A stretch of 64,000 nt of DNA, taken from positions 3,052,339 to 3,116,338 of the forward strand of contig CM049316.1 in the NCBI GenBank assembly GCA_026874595.1, in the 5' to 3' direction. The stretch is from Sipunculus nudus. Lineage: Eukaryota > Annelida > Sipuncula > Golfingiida > Sipunculidae. The position numbers were made by a program, and so were the translations under genes. Numbering within the stretch: position 1 is the first letter of the stretch; every line of letters begins with the position of its first letter. The notes beneath the pieces are model-generated. The model did not search any database and was not told the origin of the DNA. It worked only from the letters and a program-made list of their open reading frames with translations. Below, in pieces: positions 7,484 to 58,949 of the stretch.

Positions 7484-7555
7484 AAGCTGCAGGTTGATGT
7501 TGAGCTGCGGGATGAAGAAAGAGCCAGCTTGGAAGAGCTGCAAAGAGCTGACTGG
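7484..7555 (+). CDS. spire: spire exon 1 of window: linker between KIND and WH2-A
   Basis: 72 nt, phase 0 at both ends, 24 codons. A pyrimidine-rich acceptor ending in TTTCAG precedes it, and the donor is GTCAGT after TGG. It encodes a charged helix ending LEELQRADW, which runs straight into ARLW of the next exon; the ADWARLW junction is characteristic of Spire proteins. At least one KIND-encoding exon must lie upstream of the window. Confidence 0.92.
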
Positions 7556-10500: not shown

Positions 10501-12880
10501 AGAGTGAACATTAGACCCCTGGATCTCTTGTAGTTAATAAACTAGAGGTTAAAGCCAAGGAGTGCTATAACTACTTCAGTGCATTACTGCTGTGTGAGGA
10601 GGGTACAGGAGCCTACTCAAACTGAATTGTTGTTATCTTGTCCCAATCCCTAATTAGTAGTTTACTCACAATTTGTTCCTGCAGCACACAATAACTGTGC
10701 AATCATCAGGTGCCTTAGATGAGTCTCAGAGATGTTTGTTTTGATTTTAAAAATTAATATCATTTGTTTATCATATGCTGAGATCATGAAATTAAACTTT
10801 CAAATGCCATGGCTTTTATGATGGTCACAAATAATATAAAGCCATTGGATGGATTTTGATAAAACTCAATAGAAATATTAATCAATAAAATATATCATGT
10901 ATGTTTGATTTCCATCAAAATCCATGCATATTTAATTAGGTCAGAGATCCCTGCACTTTGTTGGCACCACCCTGACTTACCAAAAATCTGATGGATTTTC
11001 ATATAACTCATGATGAGTATTAACCAATACAGTTTCTGAATTACAATCACAACAAATTCATGCATAATTAATGAGGTCAGAGGTCACAAAATATGCAACT
11101 TGAGTATTAGGCACCATTTGCTCTGCTGTTGTAGTTTCAAATGTATTCATTTTAAATTATATTATTTGTCCTGTGTTATTTTCACAGGCACGGTTATGGT
11201 TACAAGTGATGCGTTCACTCAGACAGGGAGTCAAACTAAAAAAGGTCCAGGCCACAGAGATGCATCCGTACGAGTTTGAGCTGACACCATACGAAATGCT
11301 GATGGACGATATCCGAGCTCGTCGCTACTGCTTAAACAAAATAATGGTGAGTAACATAGCTTGTTAACTGTGTGTTTTTATATATAATGCTCATTCTCAT
11401 TACAGGGCTATAACTCATCATACAATGGAGCTCTTTTTCTATATGAATACTTGTGAATTAGACTTTCTTTTCAGTTCTTTACATTAAAATCAGGTCACTG
11501 TGGCCTAGTTTTATAATGTCCTGCTAGTCAAAGCCAGTGCTGTTCTAAAACCTTACTTGATAGAGTCCAAAAAATATTTCAGTTCACTACTTCATGTATA
11601 TTTTACTTTTTCACTGGTAGCTGACACTGCCTGTAGTGCAGTATAGTTTACATGTGACTTTTGCTATTTTCAAACTGTGGTAAATCCAGCAATCCTTGAT
11701 CTGATTATTAGAAATTAAAAAGGGAGACACATGACGACCATATATAATTCTGTCATCTTCCAATGCTTGAAGACAACTTGACTTTCTTTGGTCACTGAAA
11801 TTACAAAACATGTCCCAAAAAAAAGCACAATACATTGTCAAAATGTCATCACATTATCTCTGTATTTGCTGGATTTTGTCGTCATACTGGCCATGGTTAT
11901 TGATTGAATTTGATTCTAACAAGCCTTCCACTGTTTTACAGTATGTGCTGCCAGCTCAATTTTCCATGTTTACTGTCAATTTTTCTTCAAAACAGCCTTC
12001 CTGAAGAAAGTTTTGTCAATGTATTCAAGGTTATTTTCCCAATTACCACTCCTGTTTCGCTATATCCACTTCAGAGTTTTGTTACATTTGACTACAGTCT
12101 CTGCATCATTACAGACTTGTCACCAGTCAAGGCCTTCTTCCATTGAATCTTTTCTTTATCCTACTTGTGAAAAAAAACTGAGTATTTATTTGAAAAAAAT
12201 TTTAATCCTAGCACTTCATTTTGTGTATCTTTTCACAAATGAACCCTTAGTTGTAACCTGAATCTTCAAACTGAATGAATCAAAGTCAATGTTGTCATTA
12301 ACCAAGCAGCTCATCTGCCAGTCACTGCACTGGTATTATTGTATCCGCCAAAACAATGTTTTGTGGATACTATGTTTTTGACCTTGTTCCACTTCTGCCA
12401 CCATCGCCGAATTCATTTCCGGAGAACTCCTCTGAGATTACTTGACCAATTTTTTCAAAACTTAACTCAATTATTACATGTGAACTGGTGCCTAACCATT
12501 TGGCATCAACCTCTGACCTTTCCTCTCTCCAGTGTGTCCATCTGTGTGTCTGTTTGACACATTAACCCAATTATCTTTGGACTCTTTTGACAAATCAGGA
12601 AAAAATTTTTGCACAAATGTAACCCTTGAATAGCTTTATAACAGGTGGCACCACCTACAATTATGTTTACGTGGTAGACATCCATGCTAATATGTAACAC
12701 AATTAACTCTTGTTTTCCCTTGCTACTCAATCCATGCCTGACTTCACCTGTCCTACCCGTCCTGATTTTGGCAGATACAGGAAGTCGCTTGTCAACTACC
12801 TGTATTTTAGTTTAATTATAATTTCTCTTAATTGCAGGGCTAATGCCTTATATAATATTTGTAATACAAATGTTGTAATG

Positions 12881-12935
<55 letters not shown>

Positions 12936-15900
12936 ATTCACATACATTCATGATTGCAGCTTGTATGATTTATTTATGTGTCAGTATATTATATTGATCC
13001 TAGTGGATAGCTTTAGTAAATATAATAGCTCCAAAAATGGTCAATACCATAATGAGGAAAGATATCAGTTTATTTTCAGTCTGAATGGAAACTCCCAGGA
13101 CGAATAAAGGCAGATTAAATGTAATTGAAACATATATTCTTTCTTTTGTCTTATTGATCAATAATAAAAATAATAACAAATACTAATAAACACAAAATAA
13201 TTAAGGGCTTATTAATGGAGTATAGATGGTGTATAAATAATCCTTGTTTTAAATTTCCCTTCATAAATTACCTGTATGTGAACTTTTAACATTGTATTTA
13301 TGATATTACTCTTTTTCCATAGCCTGAGCTTCATTAACTAACTATGAGTGCCATGTTGTGGATCATGTTTGTTCATGTTTTATTTGATTGTGTTTTTTTG
13401 CCTCCAGGTTAACGGTGACATCCCCCCTCAAACAAAGCAGGATGCTCACTCTGTCATCCTGGAGTTCATCCGATCCAGACCCCCTCTCCATCCAGTAAGT
13501 GCACTGTTAACAACGTGACCTGGTTTACTGTGTAGTTGTTGAGATGACTCTGATAAGTTTTTACCAGGACAAATATGGGTGGAATTCATGTGGTCCTGCG
13601 ACAGTTATTTGTACACTTTATAAAGCATTTAATGATCACCATGCCAATCACCATATTTGAACCTGGGGATGGGGGATAGGATTATTGGTACCTTTTATAA
13701 AGTATTAACAGATCACCATGCCAATCACCATATTTGAACCTGGGGATGGGGGATAGGATTATTGGTACCTTTTATAAAGTATTAACAGATCACCATGCCA
13801 GTCACCATATTTGAACCTGGGGGTGGGGGATAGGATTATTGGTACCTTTTATAAAGTATTAACAGATCACCATGCCAAACCCCATATTTGGACTAGGGGG
13901 GTGGGGGATAGGATTATTGGTACCTTTTATAAAGTATTAACAGATCACCATGCCAAACCCCATATTTGGACTGGGGGGGGTGGGGGATAGGATTATTGGT
14001 ACCTTTTATAAAGTATTAACAGATCACCATGCCAGTCACCATATTTGAACCTGGGGGGTGGGGGATAGGATTATTGGTACCTTTTATAAAGTATTAACAG
14101 ATCACCATGCCAAACCCCATATTTGGACTAGGGGGTGGGGGATAGGATTATTGGTACCTTTTATAAAGTATTAACAGATCACCATGCCAAACCCCATATT
14201 TGGACTAGGCTGGTGGGGATAGGATTATTGGTACCTTTTATAAAGTATTAACAGATCACCATGCCAAACCCCATATTTGGACTAGGGGGGATGGGGATCG
14301 GATTATTGGTACCTTTTATAAAGTATTAACAGATCACCATGCCAAACCCCATATTTGGACTAGGGGGGTGGGGGAATAGGATTATTGGTACCTTTTATAA
14401 AGTATTAACAGATCACCATGCCAAACCCCATATTTGGACTAGGGGGGGTGGGGGATAGGATTATTGGTACCTTTTATAAAGTATTAACAGATCACCATGC
14501 CAAACCCCATATTTGGACTAGGGGGGGTGGGGGATATGATTATTGGTACCTTTTATCATGTATTAAACTGATCACCCTGCCAGTCACCATATTTGGACTA
14601 GGGGGGGGGGGATAAGATGTAGCCTAGGGATTGAGGCATTTCACTTGATTTCATGTTTTATATACATAGGGTTGTTATTAAGACAGAACAAATGTTTCAT
14701 TTGAAGCCCCACTGGTGTTTAAACTGAGGACCTCCGACGAAGTGCAAAGCCTTAACCATTATACTTTGTTCTTCCCCCTAGTGTTGCTTGTAGATGATAG
14801 AAGCCACACTGTTACCCCTCTTTACAACAGGGCAGCACCTGTCTGGTTGATTTTAGGAATACTCCCTTTGATGCCTCAGTTTTGTACTTTTCCATGATAT
14901 AAGTGTTCCTGCAGGTGCCTCCATCCTTTCTTATTTGATAACTGTAGAACTTTTCTGGGTGCCTTGGCGTTCTCTTTGTTAATTATACATCACTCAGAGG
15001 TCCCCTAGGTGGCTGCTTAATTCTGGTTGTCATGTTGTGAGAGCCGTTTTAAGTGTCCCATTACCCAGACTTTTAAAATGAGCAGGGAAGCATGGTTTCT
15101 TTGTGAGAGGGACTTGTCAATTATGTATCACATGCCTGCTGTGTAGGTTTTATGATCTTTCCGTGCTTTTAGTGAAATTATTCTGCAAGTTTTTGAGTTT
15201 AGTGTTAGTTTTTAGCCCTCAGTCTTAAAGGCTGAAGGCTATTGTTATCGCCCAAGCTGTTTGTCCATCCGTCTGGCCAGCATCTATTAACTTTAACCTT
15301 GTGAGCAGGATATCTCTAAAATGCTTCACTGTAGGAATTTTATTTCTTCGGTGCAGATGTATATTAACAAAACCTCAGTCAAGTTTAAAGATGAGTGACC
15401 TTGACATATTTCTCAATGTATCAGAGCTAATTATAGAAAAAAGCTTAGAAGCTTATTTCTCAGGAATCACTGGGTGGAATATTATAAAACATGCTACGAC
15501 TAATGACGCTGATGATCTCCAAGTGCTGCACAAGTTTGGAGGCGCCACCTACAATTTCTGATTTTAAATGATTTCATTATCAGCTTTTTCACTCCTGGCC
15601 TTGTTAGCGGGATATCTTCAATAGTATTCAACACAGGAACTTTATTTCTTCAGTGCTAATGAATATCAACAAAACCATGACCAAATTTGAAGATGGGTGA
15701 CCTTGACCTATTTTTTCAAGGTCACAGAGCTTATAATAGAAAAAACTTGGGAGGGTATTTCTCAGGAACAACCGGGCTGATTGTTATGAAACATGGTGTG
15801 GTTATTTGCCTTGATACTCTCTAAGTGCTACATGAGTTTGGGGCTGTCAGACTTGTAAAATACTACATACCTTTCTTGTTCAAATTTATAACTTGTTTAT

Positions 15901-18900: not shown

Positions 18901-21900
18901 GGATAGCCTTGTGATATACCGTAAACTGGTGGCGCCACCTATTATCCTTTTCTTGTTTTTACGCCTTTTAATACCCCCATAATTTCCACTTGACAGTACT
19001 GTAAGCATTATAAGTCAAAAACTAATGGACAGATTTCTTTCATATTATGCACATGTAGAGAGATGGGTTATGGGATGAGGTCTATTTATATTTGGGTCAT
19101 GACCTTTATCATGAGAGTGGCCTTGACCTTTAATGTATCCATATTTGGTGAAAATCACACACCTCTTATGATATCTCAAGTGTTGATAGCCATATGGATT
19201 TCAAACGTGACTTATGTATGGCCCACCACTAAAGTAAGAACCCTGTAGGTTCTAGGGTCATGAGGTCAAAGGTCAAGGTCACTGGTCTCGCATCTTAAAA
19301 GATACTGTGGATGCATTTTAAGCCAAACTTTCATCCCAGGTTTTCCATCTTGAATATATAGCTCGCTTGCTAATAGTGGATGATCCATATATCAATTTTG
19401 GGGTCACAAGGTCAAAGGTCAAGGCCACAGGAGCTATCTGTCAAAAATTAGTTTCTGGATGATAATTCCTGCTTTTATTGATGTATTGATTTCAAACTTG
19501 ACTTATATATGTCCCACTGAAAAAGCAAGACCCCAATTGATTTAGGGTTAATGAGGTCAAAGGTCAAGGTCACAGGACACATCTTTAAAAAGATTGTGGA
19601 TGCATTTTCAGCCAAACAACTCATCTCAGACCTTTCATCTTGCACATATAGTTCATCTGCCAATAGAGGAAGACACCTATAAATTTTGAGGTCACAAGGT
19701 CAAAGGTGAAGGTCACAGGAGCCATCTGTCCAAAAATTAGTTTCTGGATGATAATTCCTGCTTTTATTGATGTATAGATTTCAAACTTGACTTGTATATG
19801 TCCCATTGGAAAAGCAAGACCCGAATTTATTTTTGGGTCATGAGGTCAAAGGTCAAGGTCACAGGACACATCTTTAAAAAGATTGTGGATGCATTTTTCA
19901 GCCAAACATTTCATCTCAGACATTTCATCTTGCACATACAGTTCCCCTGCCAATAGAGGAAGATGCCTGTCAATTGTGAGGTCACAAGGTCAAAGGTGAA
20001 GGTCACAGGAGCCATCTGTCCAAAAATTAGTTCCCGAGATGATAATTCAAGCTTGGATTAATATATGGATTTCAAACCTGACTTATATATGGCCCATCAA
20101 TAAATCTAAGACCTCTATTGATTTATATATAAAAGTGGATGATCAATATCAATTTTGGGGTCACAAGGTCAAAGGTTAAGGCCACAGGAGCCATCTGTCA
20201 AAAAATTAGTTTCTGGATGATAATTCCTGCTTTTATTGATGTATAGATTTCAAACTTGACATATATGTCCCATTGAAAAAGCAAGACCCCAATTGATTTT
20301 GGGGTCATGAGGTCAAAGGTCAAGGTCACAGGACCAACATCTTCAAAAAGATTGTGGATTGATAGATGGAAGAAACAATAATTGCTTGCCAAGTGTCAGT
20401 ATATGCTGCTAAAAATGGGGGCCTATTCTTAAAGGGGGGGGGGGGGGCCGTACTATGTCTGGGGATACTCTGGCACCTGTGATGCCAAGAAATGTCTAGT
20501 TTTCTTAGCTGACTTGCAGCACCTGCTGTCTTCAATCTGTCTGTGTGTCCTGTTTCTACATCCACCTGTCTGTGTGTCCTGTGTCTACATCCATCTGTCT
20601 ATGTGTCCTTTTTCTACATCCATCTGTCTGTGTGTCCTGTTTCTACATCCATCTGTCTGTGTGTCCTGTTTCTACATCCATCTGTCTGTGTGTCCTGTAT
20701 CTATATCAGATAAACGAGCATAGCTTACCTGTATACATGTGGCAGGAAATCATCAATAGTCAGAAGCCTTGTCAGAATAACATTAGTATAATTTACTGTC
20801 CAGCTTCATTATCCCAGTGTGATCCAAAGCAGGGGTATTGAATTTGGTCAGTTCTGTGTGTGTCCACCTGATATCTGAATTAAACGTTCAGGAATTTCAG
20901 TAAAACTTTCAGGACCTCCATCTGTTTTGTCAGTGTGTAAAAGTGATCCTGTGTCTGAATCAGTGTGGTGTGTGAACCCACATCTCAATCACCCTCAGGC
21001 ACACTGGTTCCTGCTGATGATGAAATCTCAAATTAAAAGTTTCTCGCTATCATTCAGATAAAGAGTTCTAGGCATGGTTTAACTGTCTGTATGGGGATAA
21101 AGGCGGCATACAGAGGTTCCGCACAGAGTGGGCGTTGCTGCTGGTGCTCTGCTTTCTCGTCCTATTTCACTTCTTGGACTCCGGGTGTGTGGCATTCTAG
21201 AGCTGACCTGGGAAGGCGTCTTGGACCTCTTTGCACTTTGCTTGGTGTGGCATTCTCAACAATTTTCATAGACATCGCTTCTATTTTCTCCTTAAATATC
21301 CTGAAAGCCAAATTACTGGAAACAAACTCTACTCTCCTGTTTTGTTGTTGGTGAGGGAGCTGGTGTGGGTCCTCATAGGGCTATACATGATCAGCTTGAG
21401 CCCTGACTCCACTTTTCTGCTGCTGCTGCTGGGATTGGTTCCAGTGGTAGGCAGATTAGTTTACAACATTCTCACCAGAGGGCTGTAGTCTTATCACACC
21501 ATGATCATGATGTCACCATTAAACAGGACCTGTGACATAGAGAGTAATGACGTCACATACAGCCTGCTGCACAGTGACATAAAAGGTGCAGATCTGACTA
21601 CACGGCCCTTTATAGTTGTTATTTGTAACATGATAAAAATTTGAATTTCAGGTCAAAGACAGAAAGTTGGCAGAGCGACCACCAAGATTACCTGACCTCC
21701 GAGAGCAGTTAATGAATGACATCAGAACAGATCACAAGTTACGACCAACGCCATACAAAAAAGGTAAGCCTTCCACACTCTTATAAAATCTGAGTCATTC
21801 CAGTGGTGTAACAGATGAGAAATACCTAATAAAAAGGTTAACAACCATTTTCTTACAGGTGAAGTGATTGGTTACAGATTGTTTGAATGTTATTTTAAGG

Positions 21901-27900: not shown

Positions 27901-30900
27901 AATGAAAAAAAAAAACAACAGGAAAACCCAAGAAGACTGAATTTCCTCAGCAACTGCTGTAATAAGTCTGAAAAAGTGGAACATTCCTCACTCACCATGG
28001 GCTCTGTTACTGTAAAGTCTCAAGTACAAGCCAGAAAATTTGTTCTCAAATAGCATGGTCTAAAATCCAGTCCTGCTTATGCACAGGCCTAAGAATTTTG
28101 CCATGATCTGCCGGTAAACGCCAACGAACCAGTCTAACAAACTGCCTTGTCACAGAGGTGACTGATGTGTTGTTAACATTATCACACATTAAATAAATAA
28201 AAAAAAAATGAATTTATATGCCAGTCTTATTGTAGTTTATGAAATTGTACATTTTGTTTTGTGACAAGCTCATATTTAAAATGGAACATGTAAGACTTTG
28301 AGAACCCCTGTGATATTCCAATGTGCTTATCCCTAACATGCACTTGGAATTTGCCCTACAAATTTTATAAAAGCTGACCTAACTATCTCACTAGTGAAGC
28401 TTGCTTTTCTAGCAAAATGGTTGTAACGCCAAATACCTGCACCACCAACTTGGGTTTGAATCTAGGATCGGCCCATTATTTCCCCTGAGCAAAATGTTTA
28501 TGTAACAGTATATATGAACAGTGTGATTTTCAATGACTCCCTCAAGAATAAGTGCTATTATCAATGTCTCTTGCAAGAATCTATGCCGGCATTCCTGCCT
28601 GCTTTGGCAAGAACAAATATAAAAAAATGAATGCAGTCTTCATTAACTGGAAAAGCCACAGAAGTTTTCTGGTCAGCTTTGAAAACATTGCAACTTAGAT
28701 TGTGAGAATCTATAAAGATTATTATAAGGCTGAGTAAATGCAGAAACAAGTCTACAGTCTCTTTTCATCAAGTCTGTTTATGCCCAGGGCTACTGTTTAG
28801 ATAAACTTTACTGACTCTTAGTATAATGATTGTCATTGTAGTTATATTGATATATTGATGTGATTAATTTATTGCTGATAATTTATATTAAAATTTCTCC
28901 TGATTTTATCAGTGATTGATTGCTAATCATTTGTATTTGCATTATAAATAAAAATGATAATTTATTAATTCATATAGCAAAGCCATAAATATTTTAATGC
29001 ACTTTACAACATGCTAAAAAGCCTATACAGTTTAAGATATAGCTCTGATATTCAGGTTGTACAAGATTATTGGACACTAAGTGTGTTACAGTGTCGACAA
29101 GGATGTGTTATAAAAGACAGCTCAAGTTAAATAGATGTTCCAGACTATACCATACTTTACACTTTGCCTTTAAAATGCCACTGAGGAGCCTCTAGCTGCG
29201 AGTCCTGGCTCTGACTGGTCTGGTAAACAGCAGTTAATGCAGCCAGCCTTTTAGTAAAGCCAGATGTTAATCTTGTGTGCTGGTTGTTTCAGTTGAAACA
29301 CGGCTGGACGAGGAGGATTCTCCGATGTTGGCACGCAAAGTCATCAAACCGGATATATCATTACTCTTGGACAACAGTGAGGTAGGTGTATTTTACAGCA
29401 TTGATATCTCATTACTATTGGACAACAGTGAGGTAGATGTATTTTACATCATTGATATCTGGTTACTATTGGACAACAGTGAGGTAGATGTATTTTACAT
29501 AATTGATATATCATTACTCTTGGACAACAGTGAGGTAGATGTATTTTACATCATTGACATCTCATTACTTTTGGACAACAGTGAAGTAGATGTGTTTTAC
29601 ATCATTGATATCTCATTACTCCTGGACACAGTGAGGTAGATGTATTTTACATCATTGATATCTTATTACTATTGGACAACAGTGAGGTAGATGTATTTTA
29701 CATCATTGATATCTGGTTACTATTGGACAACAGTGATGTAGATGTATTTTACATCATTGATATCTGGTTACTCTTGGACAGCAGTGAGGTAGATGTATTT
29801 TACATCATCGATATCTCATTACTCTTGGACAACAGTGAGGTAGATGTATTTTACATCATTGATATATCATTACTCTTGGACAACAGTGAGGTAGGTGTAT
29901 TTTACATCATTGATATCTCATTACTATTGGACAACAGTGAGGTAGATGTATTTTACATCATTGATATCTCATTACTATTGAACAACAGTGAGGTAGATGT
30001 ATTTTACATCATTGATATCTCATTACTATTGGACAACAGTGAGGTAGGTGTATTTTACATCATTGATATCTCATTACTATTGGACAACAGTGAGGTAGAT
30101 GTATTTTACATCATTGATATCTCATTACTATTGGACAACAGTGAGGTAGATGTATTTTACATCATTGACATCTCATTACTCTTGGACAACAGTGAGGTAG
30201 ATGCATTTTACATCATTGATATATCATTACTCTTGGACAACAGTGAGGTAGGTGTATTTTACATCATTGATATCTTATTACTATTGGACAACAGTGAGGT
30301 AGATGTATTTTACATCATTGATATATCATTACTCTTGGACAACAGTGAGGCAGGTGTATTTTACATCATTGATATCTCATTACACCTGGACAAAAGTGAG
30401 GTAGGTGTATTTTACATCATTGATATCTCATTACTATTGGACAACAGTGAGGTAGATGTATTTTACATCATTGATATATCATTACTCTTGGACAACAGTG
30501 AGGCAGGTGTATTTTACATCATTGATATCTCATTACTATTGGACAACAGTGAGGTAGATGTATTTTACATCATTGACATCTCATTACTCCTGGACAACAG
30601 TGAGGTAGATGTATTTTACATCATTGATATATCATTACTCTTGGACAACAGTGAGGTAGGTGTATTTTACATCATTGATATCTCATTACTATTGGACAAC
30701 AGTGAGGTAGATGTATTTTACATCATTGATATCTCATTACTATTGGACAACAGTGAGGTAGATGTATTTTACATCATTGACATCTCATTACTCTTGGACA
30801 ACAGTGAGGTAGATGTATTTTACATCATTGATATCTGGTTACTATTGGACAACAGTGAGGTAGATGTATTTTACATCATTGATATCTCATTACTCCTGGA

Positions 30901-33900
30901 CAACAGTGAGGTAGATGTATTTCAATCATTGATATATCATTACTATTGGACAACAGTGAGGTAGATGTATCTTACATCATTGATATATCATTACTCTTGG
31001 ACAACAGTGAGGTAGATGTATTTTACATCATTGATATATCATAACTCTTAGACAACAGTGAGGTAGATGTATTTTACATCATTGATATATCGTTTCTATT
31101 GGACAACAGTGAGGTAGATGTATTTTACATCATTGATATCTCATTACTCCTGGACAACAGTGAGGTAGATGTATTTTACATCATTGATATATCATTACTA
31201 TTGGACAACAGTGAGGTAGATGTATCTTACATCATTGATATATCATTACTCTTGGACAACAGTGAGGTAGATGTATTTTACATCATTGATATATCATAAC
31301 TCTTAGACAACAGTGAGGTAGATGTATTTTACATCATTGATATATCATTTCTATTGGACAACATTGAGGTAGATGTATTTTACATCATTAATATATCATT
31401 ACTCCTGGACAACAGTGAGGTAGGTGTATTTTACATCATTGATATCTCATTACTCTTAGACAACAGTGAGGTAGATGTATTTTACATCATTGATATATCA
31501 TTACTCTTAGACAACAGTGAGGTAGATGTATTTTACATCATTGATATATCATTACTATTGGACAACAGTGAGGTAGATGTATTTTACATCATTGATATCT
31601 CATTACTCCTGGACAACAGTGAGGTAGATGTATTTTACATTATTGATATATCATTACTATTGGACAACAGTGAGGTAGATGTATTTTACATCATTGATAT
31701 ATCATTACTCTTAGACAACAGTGAGGTAGATGTATTTTACATCATTGATATATCATTACTCTTAGACAACAGTGAGGTAGATGTATTTTACATCATTGAT
31801 ATCTCATTACTCTTAGACAACAGTGAGGTAGATGTATTTTACATCATTGATATATCATTACTCTTAGACAACAGTGAGGTAGATGTATTTTACATCATTG
31901 ACATCTCATTACTCCTGGACAACAGTGAGGTAGATGTATTTTACATCATTGATATATCATTACTCTTGGACAACAGTGAGGTAGGTGTATTTTACATCAT
32001 TGATATCTCATTACTATTGGACAACAGTGAGGTAGATGTATTTTACATCATTGATATCTCATTACTATTGGACAACAGTGAGGTAGATGTATTTTATATC
32101 ATTGACATCTCATTACTCTTGGACAACAGTGAGGTAGATGTATTTTACATCATTGATATCTGGTTACTATTGGACAACAGTGAGGTAGATGTATTTTACA
32201 TCATTGATATCTCATTACTCCTGGACAACAGTGAGGTAGATGTATTTTACATCATTGATATATCATTACTATTGGACAACAGTGAGGTAGATGTATCTTA
32301 CATCATTGATATATCATTACTCTTGGACAACAGTGAGGTAGATGTATTTTACATCATTGATATCTTATTACTATTGGACAACAGTGAGGTAGATGTATTT
32401 TACATCATTGATATCTGGTTACTATTGGACAACAGTGATGTAGATGTATTTTACATCATTGATATCTGGTTACTCTTGGACAGCAGTGAGGTAGATGTAT
32501 TTTACATCATTGATATCTCATTACTCTTGGACAACAGTGAGGTAGATGTATTTTACATCGTTGATATATCATTACTCTTGGACAACAGTGAGGTAGGTGT
32601 ATTTTACATCATTGATATCTCATTACTATTGGACAACAGTGAGGTAGATGTATTTTACATCATTGATATCTCATTACTATTGGACAACAGTGAGGTAGAT
32701 GTATTTTACATCATTGATATCTCATTACTATTGGACAACAGTGAGGTAGATGTATTTTACATCATTGACATCTCATTACTCTTGGACAACAGTGAGGTAG
32801 ATGCATTTTACATCATTGATATATCATTACTCTTGGACAACAGTGAGGTAGGTGTATTTTACATCATTGATATCTTATTACTATTGGACAACAGTGAGGT
32901 AGATGTATTTTACATCATTGATATATCATTACTCTTGGACAACAGTGAGGCAGGTGTATTTTACATCATTGATATCTCATTACACCTGGACAAAAGTGAG
33001 GCAGGTGTATTTTACATCATTGATATCTCATTACTATTGGACAACAGTGAGGTAGATGTATTTTACATCATTGATATATCATTACTCTTGGACAACAGTG
33101 AGGCAGGTGTATTTTACATCATTGATATCTCATTACTATTGGACAACAGTGAGGTAGATGTATTTTACATCATTGACATCTCATTACTCCTGGACAACAG
33201 TGAGGTAGATGTATTTTACATCATTGATATATCATTACTCTTGGACAACAGTGAGGTAGGTGTATTTTACATCATTGATATCTCATTACTATTGGACAAC
33301 AGTGAGGTAGATGTATTTTACATCATTGACATCTCATTACTCTTGGACAACAGTGAGGTAGATGTATTTTACATCATTGACATCTCGTTACTATTGGACA
33401 ACAGTGAGGTAGATGTATTTTACATCATTGATATCTCATTACTCCTGGACAACAGTGAGGTAGATGTATTTTACATCATTGATATATCATTACTATTGGA
33501 CAACAGTGAGGTAGATGTATCTTACATCATTGATATATCATTACTCTTGGACAACAGTGAGGTAGATGTATTTTACATCATTGATATATCATTACTCTTA
33601 GACAACAGTGAGGTAGATGTATTTTACATCATTGATATATCATAACTCTTAGACAACAGTGAGGTAGATGTATTTTACATCATTGATGTATCATTTCTAT
33701 TGGACAACATTGAGGTAGATGTATTTTACATCATTGATATATCATTACTCCTGGACAACAGTGAGGTAGGTGTATTTTACATCATTGATATCTCATTACT
33801 CTTAGACAACAGTGAGGTAGATGTATTTTACATCATTGATATATCATTACTCTTAGACAACAGTGAGGTAGATGTATTTTACATCATTGATATATCATTA

Positions 33901-36900
33901 CTATTGGACAACAGTGAGGTAGATGTATTTTACATCATTGATATCTCATTACTCCTGGACAACAGTGAGGTAGATGTATTTTACATTATTGATATATCAT
34001 TACTATTGGACAACAGTGAGGTAGATGTATTTTACATCATTGATATATCATTACTCTTAGACAACAGTGAGGTAGATGTATTTTACATCATTGATATATC
34101 ATTACTCTTAGACAACAGTGAGGTAGATGTATTTTACATCATTGATATCTCATTACTCTTAGACAACAGTGAGGTAGATGTATTTTACATCATTGATATA
34201 TCATTACTCTTAGACAACAGTGAGGTAGATGTATTTTACATCATTGACATCTCATTACTCCTGGACAACAGTGAGGTAGATGTATTTTACATCATTGATA
34301 TATCATTACTCTTGGACAAAAGTGAGGTAGGTGTATTTTACATCATTGATATCTCATTACTATTGGACAACAGTGAGGTAGATGTATTTTACATCATTGA
34401 TATCTCATTACTATTGGACAACAGTGAGGTAGATGTATTTTATATCATTGACATCTCATTACTCTTGGACAACAGTGAGGTAGATGTATTTTACATCATT
34501 GATATCTGGTTACTATTGGACAACAGTGAGGTAGATGTATTTTACATCAATGATATATCATTACTCTTGGACAACAGTGAGGTAGATGTATTTTACATCA
34601 TTGATATCTCAATACTATTTGACAACAGTGAGGTAGATGTATTTTACATTATTGATATATCATTACTATTGGACAACAGTGAGGTAGATGTATTTTACAT
34701 CATTGATATATCATTACTCTTAGACAACAGTGAGGTAGATGTATTTTACATCATTGATATATCATTACTCTTAGACAACAGTGAGGTAGATGTATTTTAC
34801 ATCATTGATATCTCATTACTCTTAGACAACAGTGAGGTAGATGTATTTTACATCATTGATATATCATTACTCTTAGACAACAGTGAGGTAGATGTATTTT
34901 ACATCATTGACATCTCATTACTCCTGGACAACAGTGAGGTAGATGTATTTTACATCATTGATATATCATTACTCTTGGACAACAGTGAGGTAGGTGTATT
35001 TTACATCATTGATATCTCATTACTATTGGACAACAGTGAGGTAGATGTATTTTACATCATTGATATCTCATTACTATTGGACAACAGTGAGGTAGATGTA
35101 TTTTATATCATTGACATCTCATTACTCTTGGACAACAGTGAGGTAGATGTATTTTACATCATTGATATCTGGTTACTATTGGACAACAGTGAGGTAGATG
35201 TATTTTACATCATTGATATCTCATTACTCCTGGACAACAGTGAGGTAGATGTATTTTACATCATTGATATATCATTACTCTTAGACAACAGTGAGGTAGA
35301 TGTATCTTACATCATTGATATATCATTACTCTTGGACAACAGTGAGGTAGATGTATTTTACATCATTGATATCTTATTACTATTGGACAACAGTGAGGTA
35401 GATGTATTTTACATCATTGATATCTGGTTACTATTGGACAACAGTGATGTAGATGTATTTTACATCATTGATATCTGGTTACTCTTGGACAGCAGTGAGG
35501 TAGATGTATTTTACATCATCCATATCTCATTACTCTTGGACAACAGTGAGGTAGATGTATTTTACATCATTGATATATCATTACTCTTGGACAACAGTGA
35601 GGTAGGTGTATTTTACATCATTGATATCTCATTACTATTGGACAACAGTGAGGTAGATGTATTTTACATCATTGATATCTCATTACTATTGGACAACAGT
35701 GAGGTAGATGTATTTTACATCATTGATATCTCATTACTATTGGACAACAGTGAGGTAGATGTATTTTACATCATTGACATCTCATTACTCTTGGACAACA
35801 GTGAGGTAGATGCATTTTACATCATTGATATATCATTACTCTTGGACAACAGTGAGGTAGGTGTATTTTACATCATTGATATCTTATTACTATTGGACAA
35901 CAGTGAGGTAGATGTATTTTACATCATTGATATATCATTACTCTTGGACAACAGTGAGGCAGGTGTATTTTACATCATTGAAATCTCATTACACCTGGAC
36001 AAAAGTGAGGTAGGTGTATTTTACATCATTGATATCTCATTACTATTGGACAACAGTGAGGTAGATGTATTTTACATCATTGATATATCATTACTCTTGG
36101 ACAACAGTGAGGCAGGTGTATTTTACATCATTGATATCTCATTACTATTGGACAACAGTGAGGTAGATGTATTTTACATCATTGACATCTCATTACTCCT
36201 GGACAACAGTGAGGTAGATGTATTTTACATCATTGATATATCATTACTCTTGGACAACAGTGAGGTAGGTGTATTTTACATCATTGATATCTCATTACTA
36301 TTGGACAACAGTGAGGTAGATGTATTTTACATCATTGATATCTCATTACTATTGGACAACAGTGAGGTAGATGTATTTTACATCATTGACATCTCATTAC
36401 TCTTGGACAACAGTGAGGTAGATGTATTTTACATCATTGATATCTGGTTACTATTGGACAACAGTGAGGTAGATGTATTTTACATCATTGATATCTCATT
36501 ACTCCTGGACAACAGTGAGGTAGATGTATTTTACATCATTGATATATCATTACTATTGGACAACAGTGAGGTAGATGTATCTTACATCATTGATATATCA
36601 TTACTCTTGGACAACAGTGAGGTAGATGTATTTTACATCATTGATATATCATTACTCTTAGACAACAGTGAGGTAGATGTATTTTACATCATTGATATAT
36701 CATAACTCTTAGACAACAGTGAGGTAGATGTATTTTACATCATTGATATATCATTTCTATTGGACAACATTGAGGTAGATGTATTTTACATCATTGATAT
36801 ATCATTACTCCTGGACAACAGTGAGGTAGGTGTATTTTACATCATTGATATCTCATTACTCTTAGACAACAGTGAGGTAGATGTATTTTACATCATTGAT

Positions 36901-39900
36901 ATATCATTACTCTTAGACAACAGTGAGGTAGATGTATTTTACATCATTGATATATCATTACTATTGGACAACAGTGAGGTAGATGTATTTTACATCATTG
37001 ATATCTCATTACTCCTGGACAACAGTGAGGTAGATGTATTTTACATTATTGATATATCATTACTATTGGACAACAGTGAGGTAGATGTATTTTACATCAT
37101 TGATATATCATTACTCTTAGACAACAGTGAGGTAGATGTATTTTACATCATTGATATATCATTACTCTTAGACAACAGTGAGGTAGATGTATTTTACATA
37201 ATTGATATCTCATTACTCTTAGACAACAGTGAGGTAGATGTATTTTACATCATTGATATATCATTACTCTTAGACAACAGTGAGGTAGATGTATTTTACA
37301 TCATTGACATCTCATTACTCCTGGACAACAGTGAGGTAGATGTATTTTACATCATTGATATATCATTACTCTTGGACAACAGTGAGGTAGGTGTATTTTA
37401 CATCATTGATATCTCATTACTATTGGACAACAGTGAGGTAGATGTATTTTACATCATTGATATCTCATTACTATTGGACAACAGTGAGGTAGATGTATTT
37501 TATATCATTGACATCTCATTACTCTTGGACAACAGTGAGGTAGATGTATTTTACATCATTGATATCTGGTTACTATTGGACAACAGTGAGGTAGATGTAT
37601 TTTACATCATTGATATCTCATTACTCCTGGACAACAGTGAGGTAGATGTATTTTACATCATTGATATATCATTACTATTGGACAACAGTGAGGTAGATGT
37701 ATCTTACATCATTGATATCTCATTACTCCTGGACAACAGTGAGGTAGATGTATTTTACATCATTGATATATCATTACTCTTGGACAACAGTGAGGTAGAT
37801 GTATTTTACATCATTGATATATCATAACTCTTAGACAACAGTGAGGTAGATGTATTTTACATCATTGATATATCATTTCTATTGGACAACATTGAGGTAG
37901 ATGTATTTTACATCATTGATATATCATTACTCTTAGACAACAGTGAGGTAGATGTATTTTACATCATTGATATCTCATTACTCTTAGACAACATTGAGGT
38001 AGATGTATTTTACATCATTGATATATCATTACTCCTGGACAACAGTGAGGTAGGTGTATTTTACATCATTGATATCTCATTACTCTTAGACAACAGTGAG
38101 GTAGATGTATTTTACATCATTGATATATCATTACTCTTAGACAACAGTGAGGTAGATGTATTTTACATCATTGATATATCATTACTATTGGACAACAGTG
38201 AGGTAGATGTATTTTACATCATTGATATCTCATTACTCCTGGACAACAGTGAGGTAGATGTATTTTACATCATTGATATATCATTACTATTGGACAACAG
38301 TGAGGTAGATGTATTTTACATCATTGATATATCATTACTCTTGGACAACAGTGAGGTAGATGTATTTTACATCATTGATATATCATTACTCTTAGACAAC
38401 AGTGAGGTAGATGTATTTTACATCATTGATATCTCAATACTCTTAGACAACAGTGAGGTAGATGTATTTTACATCATTGATATATCATTACTCTTAGACA
38501 ACATTGAGGTAGATGTATTTTACATCATTGATATATCATTACTATTGGACAACAGTGAGGTAGATGTATTTTACATCATTGATATATCATTACTCCTGGA
38601 CAAAAGTGAGGTAGATGTATTTTACATCATTGATATATCATTACTCTTGGACAACAGTGAGGTAGATGTATTTTACATCATTGATATATCATTACTCTTG
38701 GACAACAGTGGGGTAGGTGTATTTTACATCATTGATATATCATTACTCTTGGACAACAGTGAGGTAGATGTATTTTACATCATTGATATCTCATTACTCC
38801 TGGACAACAGTGAGGTAGGTGTATTTTACATCATTGATATCTCATTACTATTGGACAACAGTGAGGTAGATGTATTTTACATCATTGATATATCATTACT
38901 CTTGGACAACAGTGAGGTAGATGTATTTTACATCATTGATATCTCATTACTATTGGACAACAGTGAGGTAGATGTATTTTACATCATTGATATCTCATTA
39001 CTTTTGGACAACAGTGAGGTAGATGTATTTTACATCATTGATATCTCATTACTCTTGGACAACAGTGAGGTAGATGTATTTTACATCATTGATATATCAT
39101 TACTCCTGGACAACAGTGAGGTAGATGTATTTCACATCATTGATATATCATTACTATTGGACAACAGTAAGGTAGATGTATTTTACATCATTGATATATC
39201 ATTACTATTGGACAACAGTGAGGTAGATGTATTTTACATCATTGATATCTCATTACTCCTGGACAACAGTATGTAGGTGTATTTTACATCATTGATATCT
39301 CATTACTATTGGAAAACAGTGAGGTAGATGTATTTTACATCATTGATATCTCATTATTATTGGACAACAGTGAGGTAGATGTATTTTACATCATTGATAT
39401 CTGGTTACTCTTGGACAACAGTGAGGTAGATGTATTTTACATCATCGATATCTTATTACTCTTGGACAACAGTGAGGTAGATGTATTTTACATCATTGAT
39501 ATATCATTACTATTGGACAACAGTGAGGTAGGTGTATTTTACATCATTGATATCTCATTACTATTGGACAACAGTGAGGTAGATGTATTTTACATCATTG
39601 ATATCTCATTACTAGTGGACAACAGTGAGGTAGATGTATTTTACATCATTGATATCTCATTACTATTGGACAACAGTGAGGTAGATGTATTTTACATCAT
39701 TGACATCTCATTACTCTTGGACAACAGTGAGGTAGATGTATTTTACATCATTGATATCTGGTTACTCTTGGACAACAGTGAGGTAGATGTATTTTACATC
39801 ATTGATATCTCATTACTATTGGACAACAGTGAGGTAGATGTATTTTACATCATTGATATCTCATTACTCTTGGACAACAGTGAGGTAGATGTATTTTACA

Positions 39901-42900
39901 TCATTAATATCTCATTACTCTTGGACAACAGTGAGGTAGATGTATTTTACATCATTGATATATCATTACTCTTAGACAACAGTGATGTAGGTGTATTTTA
40001 CATCATTGATATCTCATTACTCCTGGACAACAGTGAGGTAGATGTATTTTACATCATTGATATATCATTACTCCTGGACAACAGTGAGGTAGATGTATTT
40101 TACATCATTGATATATCATTACTCTTAGACAACAGTGAGGTACGTGTATTTTACATCATTGATATCTCATTACTCCTGGACAACAGTGAGGTAGATGTAT
40201 TTTACATCATTGATATATCATTACTCCTGGACAACAGTGAGGTAGATGTATTTTACATCATTGATATATCATTACTCTTGGACAACAGTGAGGTAGATGT
40301 ATTTTACATCATTGATATCTCATTACTATTGGACAACAGTGAGGTAGATGTATTTTACATCATTGATATCTCATTACTCTTGGACAACAGTGAGGTAGAT
40401 GTATTTTACATCATTGATATCTCATTACTATTGGACAACAGTGAGGTAGATGTATTTTACATCATTGATATATCATTACTCTTGGACAACAGTGAGGTAG
40501 ATGTATTTTACATCATTGATATATCATTACTCTTGGACAACAGTGAGGTAGATGTATTTTACATCATTGATATCTCATAACTATTTGACAACAGTGAGGT
40601 AGATGTATTTTACATCATTGACATCTCATTACTTTTGGACAACAGTGAAATAGATGTGTTTTACATCATTGATATCTCATTACTCCTGGACACAGTGAGG
40701 TAGATGTATTTTACATCATTGATATCTCGTTACTATTTGACAACAGTGAGGTAGATGTATTTTACTTTGTTCACAGACAGGATATGTATATAAGTTACAG
40801 TTATGACCTTTATGTAATACCAAAAATCTCAGGCATGCATAGGACATAACAAAGGGGCTATGTCATTGATCTTTATAGCTGAAGGTACCTTGTATGAACC
40901 TTGCGCGAGATCCCCACAGGGAAACAGACTGAACAGCACATAAAAAATCATGAAATCCACAGGACTTAATATTGGTCTAGAAAACTGCATTCTATGGAAT
41001 GCATGAATCCATTATTTTTTATTATTATTGGGGGTCCCTATTATTGATTGCTCCCCAAAAAAAGTTTGCATTCACTTATTTTCCCCATATTTCAAGGTGC
41101 ATTCATGCACAAGTGACTGTACATTTGTGAATATTCTTTGATGATGTTTCCTGAATCTGGATCATAGGCCAGATCCACATTAAAATCTAATCAATTATTC
41201 ATTGGCCTATTGCTGAAATGCCCTGACAATTTCAAGAGATACCACTCATGATTGCGTGAATTATGTTGTGAACAAACACACATGAACGAGGCAGAGGAAG
41301 TGTTCATTCTTTTCATATGCATGTTTCATCATATTCTTCCATTAGATAGTGACACCTGCAGGGCATGGACCTTTACATAAAAATAGATTTAGATAACTGT
41401 TAACGTGAAACCAGCATCCTGCCAATCCACTCAGCTGTAAGTTTGCAGTTAAGGAGGCTGAGAGGATAAAATGGCCGTGTGAAAGGCTGCTTTCTTCACT
41501 GAGTGAGAGTGACCTTTAAACACGAGTCTTGGACTAAATTCATACAAGAACGTGGCATTGAATGCAGGCACTGTGGGAGTAACTTGAAAGTGGCGGTGAC
41601 CTTCATCCAAGGAAAACTCTCTCTGTGACCTGGATCATTCCTAGATGTAATGTTGGGGCACTGGGTTCTGAGAATTTGGCTTGTATTACATCAGCAAAAT
41701 TCTTAAGCTGGGTAATGTGTTTTTAAGCTGTGTAACTGAACTCTTATATCATGCTCTCCTTTTGAAACCTTATTATTTCTACAGAAGCATAGTACCAAAC
41801 TAGACGACCTGAGGTCGAACGCTTGCCGGAAGTGACCTGAAATAAGACAGCGAAATAGATGGACAGTTACTAGGCAGACAGACAGGGAACATTTGGATCT
41901 GATCAAATGAAAAACCTCTATCATTGGGGAAACAGAAGCACATATGAATAAGGTCTTGCTCATTTTCAAAAGTCAAAGAGGAGTAGACAGACAGACAGAC
42001 GGACAGACAGATAGAGACATTAATAGTGTTATTATTAGTAGCCATCCTATAGAGGACAATCCATTTTTGGACAGAAATAAAAATAATGGAAGTCCAACTG
42101 AATCCTTGGCAGTTCTTCTAATCTTTAGTGCTGGAAATAAGAAAAAGCGATGAAAATGAAACTTGAAGAGTTGAACGTCCAGAATGCCGAAATGCAAGCG
42201 AAGCCGCGTTCTTGTGAGACAGAGACCCGACCTCTGGGTCTGGGAGACTTGACCTTTCATTCCTGGACAAGCTAGGTGCCTATCTAGACCATCCTTTAAG
42301 GTCTCGGCTTAAATTAGGGCTGTCCATGAAGAAAAAAGGTAGCCGGTCAGCCTGCGTCCGGGAATTATAAAATTCCAAGAAGTCCTGCCCATCACGGATT
42401 AACTGTAATGTCCCCTTCGTGTAAGTTATCTGTAATGTTAAATTTAATATATGTTAAAAATCGGAATCTTTGGTTAAAAAAGGAAAGCAGGGATTTTTAA
42501 GGAGTCTGAAGTGGCAGGTAACCCGATAAAAAATTGTGAGGCCCTAGTTCCGTGGTGGGTTAGGACTTCATATATAAAAACTATTTACTGGCATCCGAAA
42601 GGGGTGCTGTCAAATTTTTTTTGCGCCTGCCGCACGTTTGTGAATAAAAACGGTACACTTGACAGGGGCGCGATGGAAATTTAAGAGGAAAGGTGGTAAT
42701 CCCAAGCCGTAGTTGAGTTGTTTTGACCCCAGACTTTGCAGTCCTAGCTGAAATAGGCATGGGACGGGCTCTTTTTTAAACCCGGAACGCCAGAAGAGGC
42801 TGGAGATTGAATGAAGGATTGGGCCATTTTTTATCCGAAAAACCTGGGAATTGGCAATTTAAAAAAATGACAGGGACCTTCTTAGCCCGTTCCAGCTCAG

Positions 42901-48900: not shown

Positions 48901-51900
48901 TAAGAACCTAATGTTTCTCAGTTTTATACTTTCAACATTGCTGGATAAATAGCTACAAAAGGTATCATTTTAATTTCTTTACCTTGTCATCTAGAGGTTG
49001 GTTAATAACATTGATCAATAATTCTTTAGCATAAGGCCTAGCAATAGAGCACATCAAATTGACTTTATTGTACCCTTGTAGGGCAGACTGTTGTTTTGTC
49101 CTTGCTGGTTCAATCTGTCCTAGACAACCACTTGGAAAATGAGACCATTTTATCGAGGTCCTGTGTTTGGTCAGAATTTCGTGATTTGTCTGTATATCAT
49201 TGTGTGCAGATTTACTGAAAAGTATGTTCATAGATTTATAAGAAGTTGATATTCCTGCATACTTTTTTTTACATATTCAGCTTAGATGACTGTAAGTTGA
49301 CTGAACCATAGTAATGACAATTACACTTACTTTTTCAAACAAACCCATTTCTTTGCATAAGGATCTGATAAATTTATGATCATAGACAGCCTGTCAGCCT
49401 CAGCTGAGCACCATGACCCATGCGTCCCTTGTTCAGTAAAACTCTAGTCTAACTGGTAGTAGGACCGCCTGGGTCATTATATTTGGGCACCTGGTTGGTC
49501 TTGGTCCCGTCACATCACAGGATACAGCAGTTCCTGTGGGAGGAACAAAAAACGGATTGCTTTATGCATGAAATATCACATCATTTTGGAGGCCAGCTGG
49601 ATGGCCCCCAGTGGCTGTCCCATGTTGGTTATGGCTGCTCAGTATTCACCGTGTCTAGGGTGTCCATTTAAACAGGTTTCGTGTGAGCAGATACAGTCAG
49701 ACAGATTGAATGTCTGGAGCACTAGGAGTGAGACTGCCATGTCAGTATGTTGTTTAGTTTGTATATTTGTGCCTGTTTGCCCTTTTGGTTTGGATTCCGT
49801 TAAAACGTCAATCAGGATATAGTGGCATTCAGAAGGTGGGCCATTAAGAGAGTGTACAATCTTCAGGTGTCCTTGCCTGCTGCATCTGTTGCTGACTGAA
49901 GGCTTTAGGGCTGTGCTGCTTCTGTCATGCAAGAGCTGTGTTTCTTTCTGCAAAGTCTAACAGTTTCATATGATAGATTTAAAATATTGTGGTTTCTCCA
50001 TAAGGCTGATGCAGCTTGTGAGGCTGTTCACTTTGTTGATTTTTGTTGAGTCAAACCACAGGAAAGTCAAATATTTCTGATCATTAAGTCAAATCTAGGG
50101 TGAAGTCTTGAGCCATCAACTAACTCAATTTTCTAACAGGCATGATCTGTTTTAGGTAGTAAGGGTTTTGTGATATCAGAATCAAAATTATAATTAATTG
50201 TTGTAAAGTATGCTGTAGAGTAACATGATTTTTTTTATATTTTTTAAGCCTATTAATTAAAAAAGCATCTTGATTGAGCTTTAATTCTACATTTGTCTGA
50301 CAAAAATTCTTAGGTTAATAAAAATTGATAGCCCACAAAATGGTGCATGATGGGAGCATAGTGGACTGATCCTTAGAGTACTGACATTGTTCTGATGGTC
50401 TTCTTTTTAAGACCCTAGCCATGGTCTTAACCACAAGGGTACAACCTCCCCACCTATGAATCAGTGGGTACTGGTCATTGGAGGGAGGCAAATGTAGAAA
50501 TGACCTAGCACCCACAATGGCTGCTGAATGTGTATGCTCTCTAGAGGAAAAATAAAGCTACAAGAATGACCAGGTCCAAGAGAGCAGGAAGACAGTGTGT
50601 AAAGCAGGATGAGACAAACATCGTCAGTGATTCTGGAGTGTAATGGTGTTTTGCAAAGGTGCTGGACTTGTGATCAAGCGGTCATGGGTTCAAATCCCGT
50701 AACCTCTAACTTCTTCGCTAAGACCAGGTCTCAGCCACAAGTGTGCTCACCGGTATGTCTACCCAGCATTACAAATGGGTACCAGATTAAATGCCAACTG
50801 TGTATGGTAGGCCCTGGCAACATAAAAAAAATGTGTGTAGTCTCTGTAGTGTCCTCAGAGAGCTACCACTGGGAAGTAAAATTGTAAAGTCTTCTGAGCC
50901 AGTTATTGGGAAGGGGACCTGCAACTTTAATTTTTATCAGACTATTTAAACCAAACATTTCACTTCTGTCAAAATCCATGAAATCAAATTTCCATGAATT
51001 CTTAAATCTTCAGTATTTGAGGACCAAGGGAAGGGTGCATCTGTGTTACAAGATGTCTTATGATTCAAGTTAGGCAGATTGATTCACCTGATGAATATTC
51101 ATTACTTATCACAGGATGATGATGATGATGATGATGATGAAGAAGAGGTTGATGGGGCTGCAGATGATGATGATGATGTATTTGAGGATAAAAACAAAGT
51201 GACACCCAGCCCGCTGTCTCCACTCACGCCCCTCTCACCCCCACCACTTACCCCTCAGCCTTCACCGTGGAACAAGCCAGGTAGGACTAAACAACAGTGA
51301 TTATGTTGATTTAAGATAAGCTTAATCCTTAAGGTGAAGATATATGAATAATTTCCATTTCACAACTAAAGATAAAGAATATGTCTATCCTCAGTTATAG
51401 ACTGAAATATACTGTCCATCTATAACTATAGATTGACAGTGTACTGTCCATCAGCAACAGTAGGTTGAGAGTAAAAAAACTAAAGTGTTCACCCCAACTA
51501 GAGGCTGACAGTATAATGTACATTGGTAACTATAGATTGACAGTATAGTGTGTGACTTTAAATTGACAGTATGGTGTCCATCTGTAACTATAAATTGATA
51601 GAATGATGTCCATCTATGACTATATAATGACAGTATAATGTCCATCTGTAACTATAGGTTGACAATATGATGTCAATATGTATTTATAAATTGACAGCAT
51701 AGTGTCCATCTGTAACTATAAATTGACAGTATAATGTCAATCTGTAACTATAAATTGACAGTATGATGTCCATCTGTAACTATAAATTGACAGTATAATG
51801 TCCATCTGTTATTGGTTGACAGTATAATGTCTGTCTGTAACTAAAGATTTAAGAGTAAAATGTGCATCAGGAACTATAGATTGACAGTATAATGACCATC

Positions 51901-57900: not shown

Positions 57901-58949
57901 AAGGCTGCTGATTGGTGATACTGATACAATGAATCAGACCATGTCACTGTCAATAGTGAGGCATGTATCATGTCTCTTGTAGAACACACAGCATCCGTCA
58001 GGAGAGATCCCTCTTGATTTCCCCGAGGATGTATACAAGTAATTAGGAATCAAGAAAGAAACTCCAAAAGGAAGACAATATCTGAGTCTGCTCAAAGGAT
58101 TGTAATGATCCACAAAATTTATTGGAGCTATTTGGTATCAGACTCAAATAATTCACCAACTGAAATTTCTGTTTCTATGTATTTTTTTTACATTTCTAGT
58201 GAAAGCAAACTAACAGCCCAACACACAAATTATCAGGTACAACATAAACATCCTGTCAGTTATTAAAAAACTCACATATTCAAGTTTAATAGTGTTCAGT
58301 TTGTGTTTCTCATAAATTTATATTTATATTTATTGTACTCGCAAGTCTCAGAAACAAAAAGCTGTTGACTAAAACAGGCTGACAGTTATGACAAGCTGCT
58401 CCAGTAGATCTTTTCAAGACATTTGAGATATACCGGGAACACATAAATCTTTCTTTGTCCGTATGGTAGACCTGAACATTTGGTTTCAATAATCACAGAT
58501 AGATGTAGTTAGTGGAATGAAAAGGTTGTTATCAAATACTGACCACTTGGCTTATCTCAAAATATTTAGTTACTTGTAGAGACTTGAGAGTAGTTGAATT
58601 TGAAGGTCACAGATAAAGGTCAAGATCATGGCATGTGTGCATGTTTTTATTTCAGTTGCTATGGATATATCATCAGGACAAGTGAGTTTTGTACCTGAAC
58701 GCCGACACAGTATTACAATCTGCGAGTCCCCAACCAGTACAGAGGTGTCGCCACCTGGGTCTAACACCAGCCAACCCAACGGACATAGTCAACCAAACGG
58801 ATCTGCTATGGATATCCTTCCTGACCCGGCCAGGCCTGGCGTGAGTGACTGGACAATTGATTTAGATTTATTCATGAAATGAAATTTGCATACTGATGTT
58901 GTGCTTTGGAATAGAACCCTAAACTGGTTGAACACCTCAGAGTTACTCC

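Follow-up and report, generated by a model that had tools for sequence, protein, structure and literature searches.

We analysed a stretch of 64,000 nucleotides from the Sipunculus nudus genome (contig CM049316.1, positions 3,052,339 to 3,116,338 of the forward strand), referred to here as the window, in which a spire gene carries a tandem array of about 224 copies of a 51-bp unit. Each copy repeats the end of one spire exon together with its 5' splice site (donor), and the array, 11.4 kb in length, lies entirely ahead of a single acceptor. The array is probably a near-neutral minisatellite that was born by duplication on a spire donor border and is spliced out from its first donor, in a genome where arrays seeded on splice junctions recur.

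The spire gene and its array-bearing exon

Fragments of human SPIRE1 were used as tblastn probes and matched WH2-region, Spir-box and zinc-finger exons in the window. Ten window exons with AG/GT borders join into one open frame, the last of them being read in part:

7484..7555, + strand: spire exon (AG/GT borders and open joined frame; weak tblastn match)
11188..11346, + strand: spire exon, WH2 region (tblastn with a human SPIRE1 fragment, 64% identity; frame)
13408..13494, + strand: spire exon, WH2 region (tblastn; 3ue5_B match; frame)
21652..21763, + strand: spire exon, WH2 region, phase 1 at its end (tblastn; frame; PDB match)
29293..29381, + strand: array-bearing spire exon (borders, frame)
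51115..51280, + strand: next spire exon, with an acidic run, phase 0 to 1 (acceptor, frame)
58656..58840, + strand: spire exon, linker (borders and frame only)
60375..60506, + strand: spire exon, Spir-box (tblastn; frame)
62111..62212, + strand: spire exon, FYVE-like zinc finger (tblastn; frame; sub-threshold Pfam FYVE)
63069..63169, + strand: spire exon, start only (tblastn; frame)

In the PDB, 'Protein spire' was matched (3ue5_B, E 1.7e-10, query residues 85-138), and the Pfam matches to FYVE (20.2 bits, E 6.5e-4) and WH2 (13.8 bits) fell short of the respective thresholds (27.8 and 23.1). On the same contig, three matches to KIND exons precede the window, and KIND, WH2, Spir-box and FYVE-like exons follow one another in the expected spire order. 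The initial annotation had assigned the array to 'spire exon 5'. The assignment to spire holds; the number does not, since the exon comes fifth among those detected in the window, and counting the three KIND matches makes it the eighth or a later one of the gene. It is 89 nt long, runs from phase 1 to phase 0, and its omission leads to an in-frame stop. As the annotation had proposed, an acceptor (CACAG/GATGAT) is present at 51115, with matching phases; the intron that holds the array measures 21.7 kb. The single open frame that runs through the ten window exons supports the predicted exon/donor border at 29382 well.

Tandem Repeats Finder (TRF) placed the array at 29352-40765, with a period of 51, 223.9 copies, 94% matches and a score of 19678, in line with the extent and copy number initially given. 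Our own parse, begun at the first donor (29382), yielded 223 units of 65 distinct types, comprising 219 units of 51 bp and four of 50 bp (numbers 5, 31, 194 and 222). The features needed for what follows are:

29352..40765, + strand: 51-bp minisatellite, 223 parsed units and a truncated last copy (TRF, unit parse)
29382..29387, + strand: donor 1, GAG/GTAGGT (U1 pairing)
29637..29639, + strand: first in-frame stop (TAG) reading on from the exon, from the 50-bp unit that starts at 29586
40751..40765, + strand: last donor (224) with the final 15 bases of the array, then unrelated intron

The monomer corresponds to the exon tail (30 nt) and the donor with the intron start (21 nt) of the exon at 29293-29381, which bears out the earlier view that the exon/donor border of spire is the repeated element. 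At the left edge, the array opens with a partial copy, the 30-nt exon tail GATATATCATTACTCTTGGACAACAGTGAG. At the right edge, only the first 15 of the 21 intron nucleotides (GTAGATGTATTTTAC) recur, and TTTGTTCACAG, unrelated intron, comes next; the remaining six bases of the unit, ATCATT, are without clear source. The composition of 30 exon and 21 intron nucleotides claimed at first is thus correct for the exon tail but not for the whole intron part. Including the one in the truncated last copy, 224 donors span 29382 to 40751, of which 216 have GT, seven GC and one AT.

The term 'megasatellite' had been applied to this array, but it denotes units above about 135 bp, for which 51 bp is too short. 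Head-to-tail repeats with units of 15-100 bp, the range in the accessible part of one report (PMC3618361), are minisatellites, and the array is one of them. A known structured RNA was rejected as the identity of the array, as an Rfam scan of the window gave no structured-RNA match at the gathering threshold.

The source of the unit was addressed by searching the whole genome (1.43 Gb) for an exact 34-position pattern, with two free positions, over the exon tail and the donor start. All 90 matches fell inside the spire array; neither the other strand nor a reversed control gave any. The pattern recovers 90 of the approximately 224 units of the array, and diverged copies at other loci may therefore have escaped it. 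The upstream flank of the array has one match in the genome; with 40 of 76 candidates scored, the downstream flank was seen to hold a dispersed repeat that starts at about 40977. A dispersed satellite inserted at the exon was rejected because this pattern, within its limited recovery, found no exact copy elsewhere. The unit most likely arose at the spire exon/donor border, since every exact match lies in the array.

An assembly artefact in the length or presence of the array would be an extremely improbable explanation. The window contains no N, and the longest exact repeat within the array is 659 bp, which is short compared with ordinary long reads. The 65 distinct units are ordered in blocks (one of about 59-60 units recurs in the string of unit types), and independent junction arrays occur elsewhere in the assembly.

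Other repeats were observed in the same gene. A run of GAT triplets at 51115-51178 opens the next spire exon and encodes its acidic stretch. Four further large minisatellites lie in spire introns without overlapping any of the ten exons: 13605-14618 (77 bp x 13), 47775-48813 (60 bp x 17), 53269-56153 (67 bp x 43) and 56905-57906 (67 bp x 15).

Donor strength and reading frame

Pairing of the donors with the 5' end of U1 was calculated using ViennaRNA. Donor 1 reached -12.3 kcal/mol, the best result for any of the eight spire donors evaluated in the window. This value was found for 23 of the 224 array donors, donor 1 included, and 184 had only -6.6 kcal/mol. Among the first ten donors, G at position +5 occurs in donor 1 only; the base next appears in donor 11 (29891). 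Splicing from any of donors 1-5 would keep the frame without meeting a stop, donor 6 would shift the frame, and donors 7-224 lie behind the TAG at 29637. The initial annotation had counted roughly 200 near-identical donors. More than 200 potential donors do exist, but they are not equal, as most pair more weakly with U1 than the first. Between the options it had offered, a strongly preferred first donor would fit the sequence better than a very heterogeneous transcript population. We infer that donor 1 is probably used and that the array would leave with the intron, because of the strength of this donor, the 89-nt length of the exon and the frame.

The in-frame donors suggest another possibility. 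If donors 1-5 were all used, zero to four units of 17 residues would be inserted in frame, giving graded isoforms in which donor choice sets the number of partial motifs, provided that the inserts hold the core of the myosin V motif. According to the accessible parts of two reports, this motif of mammalian Spire is located in the linker between the WH2 domains and the Spir-box (PMC5021521, PMC11231147). The array-bearing exon occupies the same position and shows the same residue order (basic, hydrophobic, acidic), most of the 17-residue inserts end in one 10-residue sequence or a close variant, and DIL-domain exons, as in myosin V tails, are present in the genome. However, donors 2-5 are weak (-6.6, -6.6, -6.6 and -3.3 kcal/mol), and the inserts are without the basic half of the motif. 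Likeness to the Spire-2 peptide of 5JCY was not significant: the best register ranked joint 6th of 382 windows compared and 2nd of the 128 in the linker, the register proposed first had a score of 0 and rank 27, and 5JCY was absent from the matches listed by phmmer for the exon region. On this likeness, a clear myosin V motif in this exon was not accepted, although position and residue order fit. We give the graded isoforms a slim chance.

The unit consists of 17 codons open in the frame of the exon, a feature absent from the initial annotation. A coding repeat exon was nevertheless rejected, as the frame through the array is broken by the four 50-bp (frameshifted) units and by six units bearing TAA; because of these units, the array would not have been retained as protein. 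A coding phase in the past, in which a short array was once all exonic and turned into intron later, after a frameshift, would leave open units of this kind. Of the seven variants in the exon-derived part that are present in at least 10 units, five were synonymous (binomial p 0.011 against an expectation of about 24%), compared with 3 of 22 rarer variants (Fisher p 0.008). This bias would fit a former coding phase, but the same pattern would result if a selected exon tail had seeded the array. The test was post hoc and depends on the cut-off, with Fisher p values of 0.41 at 3, 0.22 at 5, 0.008 at 8 and 10, and 0.0005 at 20. In the intron-derived part, none of one common and 4 of 12 rare variants were synonymous, the latter near expectation, and the sole common variant, an A/G change at +5, alters the amino acid as well as the donor. 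An open unit is also no rule: in all four donor arrays of other genes described below, reading on meets a stop after 7-23 codons beyond the peptide used. We regard a past coding phase as very improbable.

Junction arrays in other genes

The list of kinase and myosin-head matches comprised 213 entries. Of these, 153 were chosen by score and convenience, and the 138 stretches surrounding them were examined for arrays, using a period of at least 10 and at least three copies at exon ends as the criterion. The last 18 of the 153 matches were fetched after this criterion had been fixed in writing and gave one case (L135). A first look at the 30 top kinase loci revealed no array of at least five copies on the longest open frame; several of these loci are probably single-exon genes, judging from their long open frames. 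Around the 153 exon matches, we found six further arrays with a splice junction inside the unit, four with a donor and two with an acceptor:

L056:523-1522, - strand: donor array of an exon that we take, from its sequence, to be myosin-XVIII-like, ACAG/GTCAGT, 36 bp x 27.8, 27 cores
L088:1-361 and L139:116-3501, - strand: donor array of a kinase exon, AAG/GTAGAT, 65 bp, 6 + 52 cores, about 3.7 kb
L074: donor array, myosin, ACAG/GTACAT, 4 cores
L063 and L140: donor array, myosin, CAGCAG/GTAAA, 4 + 9 cores (up to four substitutions), 11 of 13 with GT
L039:1823-2299: acceptor and exon-head array upstream of a myosin exon, about 82 bp x 5.8, 4 cores (up to seven substitutions)
L135:521-726: acceptor and exon-head array upstream of a kinase exon, about 45 bp x 4.4, 3 cores (up to eight substitutions)

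The L063 array was counted by eye, as TRF ends 57 bp short of the domain match; the exon extends past this match, and its last bases share CAGCAG/GTAAA with the array. In the L088/L139 array, partial units of 33 bp recur at intervals. The two acceptor arrays are more diverged and have fewer copies. Compared with these arrays, that of spire stands out for its length, for the strength of its first donor and for its open unit; the anatomy is shared.

Four candidates were not counted. The 42-bp array at L081:1-326 begins a few bases past a kinase donor without containing it, L102 is a short array in AT-rich sequence beside a match, and no junction was found in the units of L004, at the end of an open frame, and L131, 65 bp ahead of a match. 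Several myosin-head matches at G000:C2:44848559-44854198 covered nearly the same part of the profile (about 90-204) and are perhaps alternative muscle myosin exons.

Whether junctions attract such arrays was evaluated by density and by shifting. The density of arrays lying apart from exon matches (12 in 55 long stretches) predicts 1.05 junction arrays, compared with the six found by eye (Poisson P 8e-4); a second version (93 exons, 0.64 expected, P 6e-5) was dropped because its exon number was a rough figure. With the density of the window (14 merged arrays of at least three copies in 64 kb), 2.8-3.0 were expected (P 0.065-0.085). Shifts forbidding exon disruption gave a mean of 4.5, compared with five arrays found automatically, and 707 of 1500 shifts reached five; free shifts gave a mean of 10.8, and all 1500 reached five. 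Within 60 bp, eight arrays were found, and the means were 8.0 (no exon disruption) and 12.7 (free). The short stretches inflate these means. The first density estimate speaks for a preference, the density of the window makes the case weaker, and the shifts lend it no support. Junction-seeded arrays recur in this minisatellite-rich genome, and a preference for junctions is not claimed. We consider it doubtful that splice junctions are preferred birthplaces of minisatellites here, with a junction-unit array in several percent of exons and with spire as the extreme, its exon tail still feeding selected sequence into the array. If that were so, many genes would present rows of competing donors or acceptors.

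Origin, fate and known counterparts

The history that we favour would begin with a tandem duplication that copied a short stretch spanning the end of the spire exon and its 5' splice site. The resulting 51-bp minisatellite would then have expanded to about 224 units, partly by the copying of blocks of dozens of units. The first exon/donor border presumably stayed intact, which would place the array inside the 21.7-kb intron, and joining 29382 to 51115 would remove the array along with this intron. The array is most likely near-neutral and would have been tolerated since one good border remains in front of it, rather than retained for a job.

Several observations weigh against this history. Twenty-two other array donors tie with donor 1 in U1 pairing, and first donors are not strong as a rule: in L056, L088 and L074, most later donors equal or exceed the first in U1 pairing. 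The synonymous excess among the common variants of the exon-derived part is unexpected for an intron that was always neutral. In the human CBS gene, the accessible text of one report places a repeat in non-coding sequence where exon 13 meets intron 13 and describes lower enzyme activity with more units, so such arrays need not be harmless (PMC5188458).

In a comparable way, later donors of spire might take part of the transcripts, which would lead to a frameshift or stop and to decay, so that repeat number would tune spire output. The 218 donors behind the stop (of 224), the out-of-frame donor 6 and the position of all 22 equally strong donors behind the stop are consistent with such dampening, as is the CBS example. 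However, the first rival with G at +5 is donor 11, whose use would extend the exon to 598 nt, and we consider dampening unlikely.

Rows of near-identical donors that face a single acceptor constitute a natural experiment on 5' splice site choice, in which position, U1 pairing and exon length can be compared. In spire, one intron contains 224 such donors, all of known sequence and with the first stronger than most; L056, L088 and L074 offer rows without this advantage. Clean splicing of these rows at their first donor would mean that first-border choice is very robust; otherwise, repeat number would be a ready source of heritable expression change.

Arrays of this kind had been thought undescribed, but the CBS repeat, reportedly first published by Lievers in 2001, has the same anatomy. 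In the accessible parts of the reports, it is named c.1444_1467+7(16_21), with units of 31 bp (24 exon and 7 intron bases) in 16-21 copies (PMC2630376), and is listed at exon 13-intron 13 (PMC1395315). In titles and abstract openings, with subscription journals largely outside, no splice-junction array as large as that of spire was announced, which is not proof of absence. In both genes, the unit joins an exon end to the 5' splice site and many donors stand in tandem, although the exon in spire is defined by homology and frame. The CBS repeat differs in being about 0.5-0.65 kb long, polymorphic in people and linked to enzyme activity. In contrast, the spire array has about 224 copies over 11.4 kb with a 17-codon unit open in frame, and is known from one assembly.

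Two other systems are related, as far as the accessible parts of their reports state. A survey of tandem repeats in human segmental-duplication genes attributed 27 intron modifications to repeats located where exon and intron meet (PMC2812944). These are minisatellites at exon-intron boundaries, as in spire, and they alter splicing; they vary between paralogs and may form new introns. The variable repeats of that survey, exonic ones included, average 30-bp units x 4 (160 bp), whereas spire has one KIND locus found and a far longer array. Intron gain via tandem duplication (PMC4974935) likewise multiplies splice signals at an exon edge, but it involves few copies and a new intron, whereas spire has hundreds of copies of one donor and no sign of a new intron. 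The spire array is a striking extreme of a known kind, and the recurrence of its junction-array anatomy in several genes is the more useful result.

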